A stretch of DNA of 64,000 nt from Bradyrhizobium viridifuturi (GTDB lineage Bacteria; Pseudomonadota; Alphaproteobacteria; Rhizobiales; Xanthobacteraceae): NCBI RefSeq assembly GCF_001238275.1, contig NZ_LGTB01000029.1, forward strand, positions 1-64,000. The letters are read 5' to 3'. The position numbers and the translations under genes are program-made. Under the pieces are notes generated by a model. That model saw only the letters and a list, made by a program, of their open reading frames with translations, was not told the origin of the DNA and ran no database searches. How positions within the stretch are numbered: the first letter of the stretch is position 1; every line of letters starts with the position of its first letter. Shown here piece after piece: positions 20,855-46,951 of the stretch.

Positions 20855-21519
20855 TTGAATACCAGCGTACCGACGAAACTCGCCGCAGGCAGAAACGCCA
20901 CTGCCGACAAGCTATTGGTCGCAGCCAGCGAGCTGATGATCGAACGCGCCTCGATCGAGGTCTCGCTGTCCGACATCGCGCAGAAGTCCGGGGTCAACGC
21001 TGCGCTGGTGAAATATCATTTCGGCAACAAGGACGGGCTGTTGCTGGCGCTTTTGGCGCGCGACGCCGCCACCGAGATATCGCAGCTCGAATATCTGCTG
21101 GCGCAGCCGATCACGCCGGCGGAGAAATTGCGCCTGCATATCGGCGGCATCATCCGCGCCTACCACCAGTTCCCCTATATGAACCGGCTGATCCATTATC
21201 TCCTGCACGAGAGCTCGGCTGGCGCTGCGGACGAAGTGTCGAAATTCTTCGTCGCGCCGCTGCTGGATTTTCACCGCCGACTGCTCGCCGAGGGCATCAA
21301 GCCGGCCAATTCCGCAAGATCGATCCGGTGCTGTTCTACACCAGCCTGATCGGCGCTTGCGATCACCTGTTCTTCGGCCGCCACGCAATGTCGCGCGCGG
21401 TCGGCGTCGGTCCGGTCACCGACGAGGTCTGCCGCGAATATATCAAGCACATGGAAGCCTTGATCTTCGGTGGCGTGCTCAATCCCGATAAGGAAACGGC
21501 AGCGATCGCCGCCGGATAA
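20855..21519 (+). pseudogene. TetR-family regulator, frameshifted
   Basis: This TetR-type repressor is about 221 residues when repaired. The DNA-binding domain is intact: ATADKLLVAASELMIERA, then SLSDIAQKSGVNAALVKYHF and GNKDGLLLAL. The ligand domain continues to GIKP and then changes frame near 21301, where AAGCCGG needs one G (AAGGCC) to join FRKIDPVLFYTSLIGACDHLF and the C-terminus. The start is uncertain: TTG at 20855 gives the usual family length, and the frame stays open to 20780. It is divergent from the thiolase and first before SDR, hydratase and ligase genes, so it probably senses an acyl-CoA of this pathway. Confidence 0.8.
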
Positions 21520-29802: not shown

Positions 29803-30213
29803 ATGGCGAACAACGCCGCTCCGACGCCGGCTGAGATCAGCTGGCAACTGCACCGGCTGCCTGCGCTCGAGCGCGACGCGTACATCGCCGCGCATTATCT
29901 GGGGCAGGGCGTCGCGTGGAAGACCCGTTTCTTCGACGCGATCGACTGGGGCGCAGGTTCGGTGCTGCAATTCAGCTTCCTGCAACGAGGTTGGCACCGC
30001 CATGCGCGGCTCGACAATCCGATCTATGCCTATATCGATATCGAGCAACATCCGGAAACACGCGGCCTGCGCCGCGGCCGTCGGATCGATCTCCAGGGCA
30101 CGATCAAGGCGATTGATTTCGTGACCGGGATTACGCTGACGCTCGACAAGTTCGAGATATTGCCGGTCAATCTTGTCGATCGCTTCGTCATCAGTTCGGA
30201 CAGCCGTTACTGA
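29803..30213 (+). CDS. hypothetical protein
   Basis: This 136-residue soluble protein has no signal peptide. It opens with a helix (WQLHRLPALERDAYIAAHYL), then alternates strands rich in aromatics (SVLQFSFLQRGWHRHARLDN, YAYIDIEQHPE) and ends with a basic RRGRRIDLQG strand and VDRFVISS. No known family is recognised. AAGAAG precedes the ATG. It lies 71 bases after the nitroreductase in the same direction, and its last 7 bases overlap the convergent WYL regulator gene. Confidence 0.6.
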   Translation: MANNAAPTPAEISWQLHRLPALERDAYIAAHYLGQGVAWKTRFFDAIDWGAGSVLQFSFLQRGWHRHARLDNPIYAYIDIEQHPETRGLRRGRRIDLQGTIKAIDFVTGITLTLDKFEILPVNLVDRFVISSDSRY

Positions 30214-31217
30214 CCATTGGCCCGGCGCTTTGCCACGCGCCGCGGCGGTGCGTCGGCATAGCGCTCAGCCATTGCGCCGGTGAGTTCGGCCATCTTCTCG
30301 CGCAGTTCGTCGGGCGCGATCACCTCGGCCTCGGCGCCGAGCCGCAGCAGCTCGCTCGCCGCGTGCCATACGGTCTTGCCGACCGGCATGGTGGCGACGC
30401 GCCAGCCGTCGGTGTCGGTGCCATCGGCGAGCCGCATCCGCGCCTTCACGTAAGGATGCGCCAGCGCATCGAACAGCTTCAGCCCGAGCGGCGACAGCCG
30501 CACCGTGGCCTCGTTCGGATGCAGCTCGGCCTCGAGCCGCTCGATCGAGTCGCGCCAGTAGGCCGCGAGGTCGAAGTCTGCCGGACGCGTGAACGGCCTC
30601 TCCAGGATCGTGCAATCCAGCACCCGCGCGACGCGGTAGGTGCGCACATTGCCGTCGACGAGACCGGCAAGATACCAGCTGCCGCCCTTCAGCACGAGGC
30701 CGAGCGGCGCCGCGCGCCGCCGCTTCTCGGCCTTCCAGCTCTGGTAGCGGATCTCGATCAGGTTCTCGCGCAGCACCGCGCCGGCAATCGCGCGCAGATG
30801 CTTCGGCTCCTCGGTTTCGCCGAACCAGTTCGGCGCGTCGAGATGGAAACGCTGCTGCAAGCGGTTCGCGTTGGGGCGCAAGTTCTCCGGCAGCGCCGCC
30901 ATCAGCTTGGTCTGTGCCGCCATCATCGCGGCATCGAGGCCGAGCGCGGCGGCGGGTCCCGGAAGCCCGGTCATGAACAGCGCCTCGGCCTCGCCCTGCG
31001 ACAGCCCATTGAGCCGCACCCGGTAGCCGTCGAGCAGCCGGTAGCCGCCCTCGGCGCCGCGGTCGGCATAGACGGGCACGCCTGCGGCCGAGAGCGCGTC
31101 GATGTCGCGATAGATCGTGCGCACCGAGACTTCGCAGGCCTCGGCCAGCTCGGGCGCGGTGACCTGTCCCCGCGCCTGCAGGGTGGTAAGGATGGAAAAC
31201 AGCCGGCTCGCGCGCAT
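30207..31217 (-). CDS. WYL-domain transcriptional regulator (YafY-like)
   Basis: This 336-residue regulator has an N-terminal DeoR-like helix-turn-helix (ASRLFSILTTLQARGQVTAPELAE, then VSVRTIYRDIDALSAAGVPV, then GGYRLLDGY). The central WYL domain has WYLAGLVDG and the pair RTYRVARVL, followed by a WCX extension. WYL domains sense ligands, in some cases nucleic acids or nucleotides. The start at 31217 faces the divergent GST gene, with a perfect 10-bp inverted repeat between them (31227-31251), so it probably regulates itself and the GST. The lysine/arginine-rich tail overlaps the convergent hypothetical gene. Confidence 0.9.
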   Translation of the reverse strand: MRASRLFSILTTLQARGQVTAPELAEACEVSVRTIYRDIDALSAAGVPVYADRGAEGGYRLLDGYRVRLNGLSQGEAEALFMTGLPGPAAALGLDAAMMAAQTKLMAALPENLRPNANRLQQRFHLDAPNWFGETEEPKHLRAIAGAVLRENLIEIRYQSWKAEKRRRAAPLGLVLKGGSWYLAGLVDGNVRTYRVARVLDCTILERPFTRPADFDLAAYWRDSIERLEAELHPNEATVRLSPLGLKLFDALAHPYVKARMRLADGTDTDGWRVATMPVGKTVWHAASELLRLGAEAEVIAPDELREKMAELTGAMAERYADAPPRRVAKRRANGQ

Positions 31218-31226
31218 GGGAAAATC

Positions 31227-31251
31227 ATACCTGACACAGGATGTCAGGTAT
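31227..31251. promoter_or_regulatory. operator for the adjacent WYL regulator
   Basis: A perfect inverted repeat, ATACCTGACA and TGTCAGGTAT with a 5-base spacer, sits ten bases before the WYL regulator start and 49 bases before the divergent GST. Arm length and position make it a strong repressor or activator site; recognition by the adjacent WYL protein is inferred. Confidence 0.7.
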
Positions 31252-31299
31252 AGGCGGACATAAAGGGATCATGCCCCTGTCGGCGCAAGGAGACCTGCC

Positions 31300-44719: not shown

Positions 44720-45055
44720 TCAAGTCGGTTGCGCGCCCGGAATGAGCGGCAGCCCGTGCCGGCGGCGCGCCATCGCGCATTCCGCGTCGCCCGGCAGACA
44801 AGTTCGGCACACCTCCGGCCGCACCGCATAGACGACGCAGCGCGTCGCCTCTCCGATCTTCCCCGACAACGCCGAGCAGCGATCGCCCTCGCAGCGCATC
44901 CCTGATTGTCGCGCGTTGACGAATTGCGCCGGGATCAGGTCGAGCTCTGCATCGTCCTCGGTCGTGAAGCGCGGCCAGTTCTCCGAATAGCTGCAGCAGG
45001 CGCCGCAGGACTGGCAGGGGCTTGCGCCGGCCGTATCGATCGCGTCATCCTCCAT
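44720..45055 (-). CDS. YkgJ-family cysteine cluster protein
   Basis: This 111-residue protein contains CQSCGACCSYSENWPRF near the start, then CEGDRCSALSG and a later C-x6-C-x2-C series (CVVYAVRPEVCRTC). This is the cysteine arrangement of the YkgJ/Fe-S oxidoreductase-related family, thought to bind zinc or an Fe-S cluster. The start codon shares one base with the stop of the WYL regulator gene upstream, so translation is coupled. In that context it may be made together with the regulator. Its activity is unknown. Confidence 0.85.
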   Translation of the reverse strand: MEDDAIDTAGASPCQSCGACCSYSENWPRFTTEDDAELDLIPAQFVNARQSGMRCEGDRCSALSGKIGEATRCVVYAVRPEVCRTCLPGDAECAMARRRHGLPLIPGAQPT

Positions 45056-45753
45056 CAGGTGTCCCTCGGTGCTTCCCAGACTAGGCTGCGCCGCCAGCGC
45101 GCCCTGAGCAGGTCGCGCCGCTCCGGATACTTCTCGTCGTGGTAAACAGCGGTGACCACGCGGTCGGTGCGGAAGCTGCGGAAATCCCTGCGCAGTTCGC
45201 ACCAGGCGGCGAGCAGCCGCACCGCCTCGTGATAGCCGACCGCGATCGGCCAGATCGTGCGCTCGCTGTCGCGGCCATGCTCGTCGCGATAGTTCAGCGT
45301 GATCTTCTTGCCCTCGTGGATCTGGCTGCGGGTCCTGACCATGTCGATACGGTCGGGCTCGCGGTTCCAGGCGGAGCGAGCGCGGCTCGCCGGCTCCAGC
45401 ACGAACGGCCGCAGCCGGTCGGGCACGGTCTCCGCGATCTTGGCCATCAGGTCCTCGGCCGCGCGCGCCAATGCCGGATCGGCGTGGCCGATCACCCATT
45501 GTGCGCCGAGCACGCAGGCCTCGATCTCGTCGGGTGTCAGCATCAAGGGCGGCAGGTCAAAACCCTTCTCGAGGATGTAGCCCATGCCGGCCTCGCCGCG
45601 GATCGGTACCCGCTGCTCGATCAGGCTCGCGATGTCGCGATAGATGGTCCGCTTCGAGGTCTCGAGCTCGGCTGCGATCGCGTCCGCAGTCAACGGTTTG
45701 CGGGTGCGGCGGAGCACCTGGATGATCTGAAACAGCCGGTCGGCGCGTCTCAT
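45055..45753 (-). CDS. WYL-domain transcriptional regulator
   Basis: This 232-residue regulator has an N-terminal helix-turn-helix (ADRLFQIIQVLRRTRKPLTA, KRTIYRDIASLIEQRVPIRG), the bridging LPPLMLTPDEIEACVLGAQW typical of this branch, and a WYL-type domain ending with LAAWCELRRDFRSFRTDRV. The aromatic pair is altered (AAWCE rather than WYL). ATG at 45753. A 26-base palindrome lies 100 bases upstream, and a near-identical one precedes the GST gene at 46222, which defines a likely small regulon. The last base of the stop is shared with the YkgJ-type gene. Confidence 0.9.
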   Translation of the reverse strand: MRRADRLFQIIQVLRRTRKPLTADAIAAELETSKRTIYRDIASLIEQRVPIRGEAGMGYILEKGFDLPPLMLTPDEIEACVLGAQWVIGHADPALARAAEDLMAKIAETVPDRLRPFVLEPASRARSAWNREPDRIDMVRTRSQIHEGKKITLNYRDEHGRDSERTIWPIAVGYHEAVRLLAAWCELRRDFRSFRTDRVVTAVYHDEKYPERRDLLRARWRRSLVWEAPRDT

Positions 45754-45852
45754 GGCAGTTCTCTTTGGTCGCTCTCTTGCAGCGGTCTTGACGACTGTCT
45801 TGACGGATCTCGCGGTGTCTCGACGCGTCGCCTTTTCGCGCCCCCTGTCACT

Positions 45853-45878
45853 GCTGCTGACAGCATGTTGGCAGCAGC
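45853..45878. promoter_or_regulatory. WYL operator copy 1
   Basis: CTGCTGACA, six bases (GCATGT), then TGGCAGCAG, extended by a G/C pair outside. It lies between the WYL regulator and the divergent small gene at 45924. Copy 2 at 46151 differs at only two spacer positions over 24 bases, too close for chance. Confidence 0.78.
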
Positions 45879-45923
45879 TGGGGGCTATATCAGGACAACA
45901 CCTCAAGTGAAGGGAATTTGTCC

Positions 45924-46157
45924 ATGACGAATCTTGATGAACTCGGTTTCCGGCAAGCGCAGAGCTTCGCACTGGAACAACTGGTCACGGTCTACTCCAC
46001 CTCCGGCGACCTGCGCTGGGCCCTGGTCGCGCTGATCGCACAGTCGGTCAGCACGGTCTGGTCCTACGGGCGGGCACGGCTGGTCAAGCGGGTTCGCGAG
46101 GCGGTTCGCCGCCTCGCGCCCGCAACCCCGCTCGGCAGTGAATGCCACTACTGCTGA
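45924..46157 (+). CDS. small hypothetical protein of the WYL regulon
   Basis: This 77-residue protein starts MTNLDELGFRQAQSFALEQL and has one moderately hydrophobic helix (LRWALVALIAQSVSTVWSYG), then a strongly basic stretch (RARLVKRVREAVRRLAP) and the ending SECHYC. It looks amphipathic and may be a membrane-surface protein. GAAGGGAA lies about eight bases before the ATG at 45924. It is bracketed by the two copies of the WYL operator, the second overlapping its stop codon. No family recognised. Confidence 0.6.
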   Translation: MTNLDELGFRQAQSFALEQLVTVYSTSGDLRWALVALIAQSVSTVWSYGRARLVKRVREAVRRLAPATPLGSECHYC

Positions 46158-46174
46158 CACCATGCTGGCAGCAG
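46151..46174. promoter_or_regulatory. WYL operator copy 2
   Basis: CTGCTGACA, six bases (CCATGC), then TGGCAGCAG, matching copy 1 at 45853. It overlaps the stop codon of the small upstream gene and lies 48 bases before the GST start, so it would control the GST separately. Confidence 0.78.
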
Positions 46175-46221
46175 GGGACAGCTAGCTTCAATTCACGACC
46201 ACAGGCGATCGGGAGCTTCAT

Positions 46222-46951
46222 ATGATTACGCTTTTTGGCTTTGGCACGGGCTTCGGGCTGCCGGAAATCAGCCCCTTCGTGACCAAGACCGAGGTCCAGC
46301 TCAAGATGGCCGGGCTTGCCTACACCAAGGAAAAGGCGATGCCGCCGGCCTCTCCCAAGGGCCAGCTGCCGTTCATCGTCGACGACGGCGAGACGATCGC
46401 CGATTCGACCTTCATCCGCGCCCATATCGAGGGCAAATACGGTTTCGATTTCGATGCGCCGCTGAGCCTGCAGGCGCGCGCAGGCCTGGGCTTTCGAGCG
46501 CATGATCGAGCATCACGTCTACTGGGCGCTGGTCGGCGCGCGCTGGGTCGACGATACCAATTTCGCCAAGGGACCCGCGCATTTCTTCGACGGCGCGCCC
46601 GATCATCTGCGCGACAAGATGCGCGAGGACGCCCAGTTCCGCGTCGCCGAGAACTATCTGTTGAGCGGGCTTGGCCGCCACGGCCCCGACGAGGACGTCG
46701 ATGTCGCCATGCGCTCGCTGTTTGCGCTCTCGGTGCAACTCGGCGACAAGCCCTATCTGATGGGCAACGCACCTTGCGGCTCGGACGCCACTGCATTCGG
46801 CGCGCTCGCGGGGATCCTGACGCCGTTCTTCGATTCGCCGCTGCGCGAGCGTACCGAGAAGTTCGACAATCTCACCGCCTATGTCGGCCGGATGATGCAG
46901 CAGTACTATCCGGAGTTCGCCTGGGCGCCGCTGCAGCAGCAGGCAGCTTAG
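46222..46951 (+). pseudogene. glutathione S-transferase family protein, frameshifted
   Basis: This GST-like protein of the failed-axon-connections/Tom37-metaxin-type group is about 243 residues. The N-terminal thioredoxin-like domain has GFGLPEISPFVTKTEVQLKM, SPKGQLPFIVDDGETIADS and FIRAHIEGKYGFDFD. The C-terminal helical domain has EHHVYWALVGARWVDDTNF and a late LMGNAPCGSDATAFGALAG. The frame changes near 46480 in a GC-repeat (CAGGCGCGCGCAGGCC); two added bases or one removed would restore AQAWAFERM. GGGAG precedes the ATG. The gene follows WYL operator copy 2, and the last 4 bases overlap the convergent PNPOx-like gene. Confidence 0.82.

Follow-up and report, generated by a model that had tools for sequence, protein, structure and literature searches.

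The locus and its paired palindromes

The window is the whole 64,000-nucleotide stretch analysed, from Bradyrhizobium viridifuturi. It contains a gene for a WYL-domain regulator, around which lie the following features.

44720–45055, minus strand: YkgJ-type CxxCxxCC protein, with a one-base overlap between its start and the WYL stop
45055–45753, minus strand: WYL-domain regulator, HTH_11 plus WYL, 232 aa
45854–45877, plus strand: operator 1, CTGCTGACA-N6-TGGCAGCAG, upstream of the 77-aa gene
45886–45891, plus strand: predicted -10 element TATATC, 8 bp after operator 1
45924–46157, plus strand: 77-aa fast-evolving ORF, no family match above the curated cut-off
46151–46174, plus strand: operator 2, overlapping the stop of the 77-aa ORF, upstream of the GST
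46183–46188, plus strand: predicted -10 element TAGCTT, 8 bp after operator 2
46222–46951, plus strand: glutathione S-transferase (GST), GST_N_4 type, with a frameshift in the assembly

Operators 1 and 2 are 24-bp imperfect palindromes. In each, 10 of 12 positions are self-complementary, and 22 of the 24 bases are identical between the two. The original prediction had described this near-identical pair, with the first copy starting one base early (45853, not 45854). It also placed the copies correctly: operator 1 lies between the WYL gene and the 77-aa ORF, and operator 2 overlaps the stop of that ORF and precedes the GST start. In loci without the 77-aa gene, operator 1 precedes the GST directly. 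Chance was considered as an origin for the palindrome pair and ruled out. A search of the window, allowing up to 3 mismatches, gave 5 matches compared with 0.04 expected in shuffles. Note that each site is counted on both strands, and that the remaining match, at 20901, has 3 mismatches. Across the whole genome (8.8 Mb), the symmetric pattern occurs at 6 places with up to 3 mismatches, compared with none in a reversed control.

The regulator matches HTH_11 at 60.2 bits (cut-off 25) and WYL at 39.1 bits (cut-off 21.8). It has the N-terminal HTH and the WYL domain that are required of WYL-domain transcription factors. The WYL match ends at residue 200 of 232, and the 30 or so residues that remain leave no room for a WCX domain. 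While the Trp-Tyr-Leu tripeptide is the source of the family name, Pfam membership is independent of it. VRL occupies this position in the window regulator, and the tripeptide is absent there from all 39 aligned regulator sequences. Because the regulator has neither the tripeptide nor room for WCX, sensing of single-stranded DNA cannot be assumed. Arg188, Arg192, Arg195 and Arg198 are conserved in all 39 sequences, as is Cys185, which is part of a WCE motif. From their position, we assume that the arginines are equivalents of those in SiwR. The predicted structure of the regulator had a pLDDT of 47, from an input of 17 near-identical sequences. The ykgJ and regulator genes probably form one operon, and YkgJ accompanies the WYL gene in all 80 Bradyrhizobium loci and in 7 of 35 outgroup loci.

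Substitutions at the three codon positions number 21, 13 and 45 (L009 compared with L021, L024 and L027), which suggests that the 77-aa ORF is coding. By tblastn (E 1e-3), 45 of 80 Bradyrhizobium loci and none of 35 outgroup loci gave a match to the small protein. Eight loci (L047, L051, L052, L055, L057, L058, L068 and L079) have no space for the small gene and keep both operators, 115–116 bases apart. The 26 other loci with no match do not have reduced operator spacing, so a diverged small ORF may remain in these; L077 does not include the region. We conclude that the small gene is not generally conserved, which tells against the earlier claim of a small regulon made up of YkgJ, the small protein and the GST. 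A one-base shift between about 46480 and 46502 interrupts the reading frame of the GST. Since the GST is intact, at 242–244 aa, in all 12 orthologous loci checked (L009–L020 only), the break is either a frameshift peculiar to this strain or an error in the sequence.

A second, longer WYL regulator is encoded elsewhere in the window (30210–31268, minus strand). Its open frame has 353 codons, and its SWYL motif is intact. Upstream of this gene there is no CTGnCA palindrome, the best match having 3 mismatches.

Conservation and spread of the operators

We collected 80 Bradyrhizobium orthologues of the WYL locus, with regulators 86–99% identical. One, L077, has no upstream sequence and was left out. 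Both operators, with up to 2 mismatches, are present in all 79 remaining loci, and the nearer operator ends between 32 and 148 bases from the regulator start. Mean column conservation is 0.96–0.97 within the operators, compared with 0.59–0.60 in the 20 bases before them. It is 0.65–0.73 in the 8-bp spacer that follows. Beyond the -10 element, the first site has 0.85 and the second 0.49. Note that, in this alignment, the near-site row for L015 is a wrongly picked site. The regulator would most probably bind, as a dimer, to CTGCTGmCA-N6-TGkCAGCAG, with the core CTGnCA-N6-TGnCAG.

The motif was found in all 60 genomes of the genus that were searched. For 100 genomes of the family, the motif occurs, within a 2-mismatch limit, in 16 of the 17 that have a regulator orthologue (57% identity or more) and in 3 of the 83 that do not. 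The 17 include 4 Bradyrhizobium, our own genome among them, and Fisher's test gives p 1e-14 for this co-occurrence when phylogeny is ignored. In the seventeenth genome, G333, the site (L200) is a variant beyond that limit, and its TA is phased. Genomes with only distant relatives of the regulator (E up to 1e-30) have a motif match in 1 of 21 cases. We conclude that the site is conserved and that it co-occurs with the regulator. The original prediction had proposed a specific operator associated with this WYL regulator, to be checked by searching genome-wide and beside orthologues in other Bradyrhizobium. Both searches bear it out.

At the level of the order, two TGnCA half-sites, 5–7 bases apart, lie upstream of the regulator in 26 of 29 loci, 5 of them from Bradyrhizobium (a count made with no estimate of chance). 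In other orders of the class, we examined the best 20 of 26 matches to the regulator. The core is present with no more than one mismatch in 14 of these loci (12 perfect and 2 with one mismatch), compared with 0.13 expected from base shuffling, and is absent at this limit from the other 6. Outside the class, no core with up to one mismatch was found at the best 20 of 28 phylum-level matches. These relatives are also more distant (37–45% identity), so class and distance are not separated.

It is very unlikely that the palindromes are operators for another transcription factor, with the WYL gene a mere neighbour or target. While uvrB, thioesterase, GFA and other genes with sites are unlinked to the WYL gene, sites stay upstream of the regulator at every level (79/79, 26/29 and 14/20 loci) as its neighbours change. 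The co-occurrence of motif and orthologue in family genomes also argues against such a factor.

Relatives outside Bradyrhizobium have a third half-site immediately next to the -10 element; it reads TGTCAG or TGGCAG and lies 11 bp from the neighbouring half-site. The loci are L176–L178, L185, L188, L189, L195 and L198, and also L180, L181 and L184.

Promoter phasing and target genes

Four further sites in the same genome precede genes outside the locus. These are an MFS transporter (C41; MFS_1), a 4HBT thioesterase adjoining a mutY-like gene (C9), uvrB (C38; NCBIfam excinuclease UvrB) and, with 3 mismatches, a second MFS gene (C8; best match DHA2-type, below cut-off). For the genus, we chose 40 sites outside the regulator locus, from 13 of the 17 genomes with listed sites (60 genomes searched); this choice omitted at least 8 listed 2-mismatch sites and all sites of G059. 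Of the 40, 37 lie about 30–79 bases before a gene start. The genes are thioesterase (11), uvrB (9), GFA (7), EamA (4), a second GST (2), VOC (2), MFS (1) and SDR (1), eight families that were named from the same loci as the count. The target families are thus established in the genus, and the sequences indicate a regulon wider than YkgJ, the small protein and the GST. The small regulon envisaged at the outset is not supported, given these unlinked members. Conversely, the glutathione or electrophile theme proposed with it gains support from the GST, GFA and VOC/glyoxalase-type targets.

GFA genes could be approached by a protein search that is independent of the motif. A site with up to one mismatch is present in 29 of the best 30 loci, out of 54 matches; the remainder are mostly paralogues at 36–42%. 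Our own genome has no close GFA relative, the best paralogue being 38% identical. At L142 (genome G008), an operator with intact arms persists although no GFA gene was found in the genome. There, a nuclease-like gene, named from reading, adjoins the operator; in other genomes the GFA target holds this place.

We then consider the position of the -10 element, with the offset counted from the last base of the operator, among distinct sequences with up to 2 mismatches. At offset 8, TA is found in 50 of 51 Bradyrhizobium promoters of the divergent gene, 73 of 74 Bradyrhizobium GST promoters and 28 of 28 GFA promoters. The equivalent count is 20 of 32 for order-level promoters and, at the phased offset, 11 of 14 for class-level sites. 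Hence, phasing of operator and -10 is established, and the operator-promoter design occurs in many alphaproteobacteria. The N6 centre of the operator (45863–45868 for operator 1) lies 17 bp before the -10 element, which is the -35 position. With spacers of 16–19, the best -35 match is only 2–3 of 6 in the three Bradyrhizobium sets, and 1–4 at the order level. No consensus sigma-70 promoter was found in 45600–46400. Phased promoters also include 12 listed for thioesterase, 4 listed for EamA, those of SDR and the MFS gene of C41, and one of the two VOC promoters. Unphased are uvrB, the second GST, the MFS gene of C8 and the other VOC promoter. In our own genome, the core plus TA at the phased offset, with 0 mismatches, occurs at four places: before the 77-aa gene, the GST, the thioesterase and the MFS gene of C41. 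What is new here is the fusion of operator and promoter, with 8 bp between the operator end and a target-facing -10 element of TA type.

Towards the WYL gene, TA at offset 8 was seen in 0 of 75 Bradyrhizobium and 5 of 31 order-level promoters. Because there is no phased promoter in the direction of WYL-ykgJ in Bradyrhizobium, membership of YkgJ in the regulon is unproven.

The same data bear on whether the palindromes might be a dispersed repeat, or an RNA hairpin, rather than operators. Nine-base arms around a six-base centre are able to fold, and two copies lie 300 bases apart. However, only the 24 bp are conserved, copies per genome are few, 37 of the 40 chosen genus sites lie 30–79 bases before a gene start, and the distance to the -10 element is fixed. 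No terminator, or terminator-like T run, was found in 45600–46400. We regard this as the most improbable of the explanations considered.

The uvrB gene is the weakest link in the proposed mechanism, being unphased, mostly reversed and without a site in about half of the loci. It was found in 59 of 60 genomes; G042, where the match is at a contig end, was left out. A site with 0 arm mismatches is present in 30 of the 58 loci, about half of the Bradyrhizobium genomes examined, and nothing better than 3 mismatches was found in the other 28 (one locus, L282, was examined over only 206 bases). All but two columns of the 30 sites are invariant between variable flanks, so that the site looks constrained where present. 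There is also a conserved block just before the uvrB start. None of the 23 listed zero-mismatch uvrB promoters has a -10 at the phased offset and, at 25 of the 30 sites, the two half-site variants are in reverse order. The regulator may act on uvrB through these sites.

In other genera, the same protein families recur beside the regulator. The divergent neighbour is a GST in many loci (by Pfam in L177, L290, L292, L294, L295 and L297), a VOC protein in L174 and L188, a GFA protein in L199 and EamA in L305. The GST of the window has a match somewhere in 16 of 35 outgroup loci. The VOC, GFA and EamA genes with operators are unlinked to the regulator in Bradyrhizobium. Thus, GST, VOC, GFA and EamA lie beside the regulator in one genus and bear operators in another. 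The divergent neighbour in L296 is a polyketide-cyclase-type protein. In L178 and L184, a divergent 135-aa protein lies beside the regulator, and a GST match is found in the same locus. The divergent genes of L302 and L303, beside the regulator in other orders, share DNPHRWWN near their ends. No Pfam family was matched by the divergent proteins of L178 and L302.

Proposed mode of action and relation to known WYL regulators

We consider it probable that the WYL regulator is an activator, which acts through the promoter-embedded 24-bp repeat at detoxification, transporter and some uvrB genes. The repeat would be built into the main target promoters, its 6-bp centre standing in for the -35 hexamer and 8 bp separating its end from the -10 element. 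Two DNA-binding domains would then flank the -35 position, as reported for DriD, and the activator would assist RNA polymerase at promoters with no usable -35. Targets would be the GST, a GFA-domain protein, a VOC/glyoxalase-type protein, thioesterase, SDR, EamA, MFS and, in part of the genus, uvrB. The natural reading of this set would be a response to DNA-reactive electrophiles. We prefer activation to repression because the geometry matches the arrangement of operator and -10 element at DriD targets.

DriD, a WYL protein of Caulobacter crescentus, activates a DNA damage response outside the SOS system (PMC12340889). In that report, DriD promoters have the -35 at the operator centre, an equal -10 distance in all cases and 1–2 of 6 matches. 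Shared with DriD, on this account, are an HTH-WYL regulator, a palindromic operator centred on the -35, a fixed -10 distance and a poor -35. Similarly, the promoter concerned faces the divergent gene, rather than the regulator's own, and DNA-repair genes are among the targets of DriD and among those predicted here. We found this geometry at the divergent, GST and GFA promoters and not at uvrB. The proteins differ: DriD, as described there, has 327 residues and a WCX domain, whereas the window protein has 232 residues, no room for WCX and no WYL tripeptide. DriD controls didA, bapE, recJ and dnaG, whereas detoxification genes make up most of the targets predicted here, which include uvrB in part of the genus.

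Repression is possible, and we judge it less likely. A repressor dimer would cover the -35 region and block RNA polymerase until an inducer bound the WYL domain; once the regulator left, the promoters would work via an extended -10. The operator overlaps the promoter at all phased targets, and an operator over the -35 would suit a repressor equally well. PMC10693628 also mentions WYL proteins that repress anti-phage systems. In addition, a promoter with an extended -10 might need no -35, which counts against activation. The third half-site beside the -10 element, in some relatives, fits repression and is not explained by a simple activator dimer. However, the operator centre is unlike a -35 (2–3 of 6 in the Bradyrhizobium sets), so the freed promoter would be weak. 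Furthermore, nearly all phased promoters have exactly the same -10 spacing, and repression needs no such precision.

Returning to activation, the target set permits a broader and more doubtful proposal. This is that an SOS-independent response to genotoxic electrophiles is widespread in alphaproteobacteria. A short, WCX-less WYL activator on the -35 would control glutathione detoxification and export, with uvrB captured in part of Bradyrhizobium. One switch would then serve both to remove the chemical and to excise the adducts it forms on DNA. The signal could be fragments of damaged DNA or direct modification of Cys185; more generally, it may be single-stranded DNA, an electrophile or something else.

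We found no description of this regulon in the literature, in a search restricted largely to freely available papers. To our knowledge, WYL proteins with known sites are fewer than those characterised. In the present case, sequence alone reveals a site, the geometry of its promoter and a regulon open to testing, across much of a bacterial class. If the activation model is true, the DriD mechanism extends to a much shorter WYL protein. In root-nodule bacteria, it would also tie nucleotide excision repair to glutathione detoxification.

The number of WYL proteins characterised is small, according to PMC10693628. One is SiwR of Mycobacterium smegmatis, which, as described there, is also an HTH-WYL protein and acts on an adjacent operon through an imperfect palindrome in the promoter. 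We count as further likenesses the glyoxalase-like gene found alongside in some actinobacteria and the need for WYL-domain arginines (PMC10693628). In the same account, the SiwR palindrome is 19 bp long and sits between -35 and -10, with its key element at -26, whereas ours is 24 bp and centred on the -35. SiwR has one adjacent operon, whereas several unlinked targets are predicted here. PafBC of mycobacteria is likewise a WYL activator of a DNA damage response (PMC11804915, PMC6789036 and PMC10693628). Unlike the window regulator, it is described as a heterodimer that acts by sigma adaptation on a different regulon. None of the regulator's 8 PDB sequence matches (E up to 10) is named DriD; the best, and hence the nearest solved relatives by sequence, are PafC (E 1e-4) and PafBC (E 1e-3).
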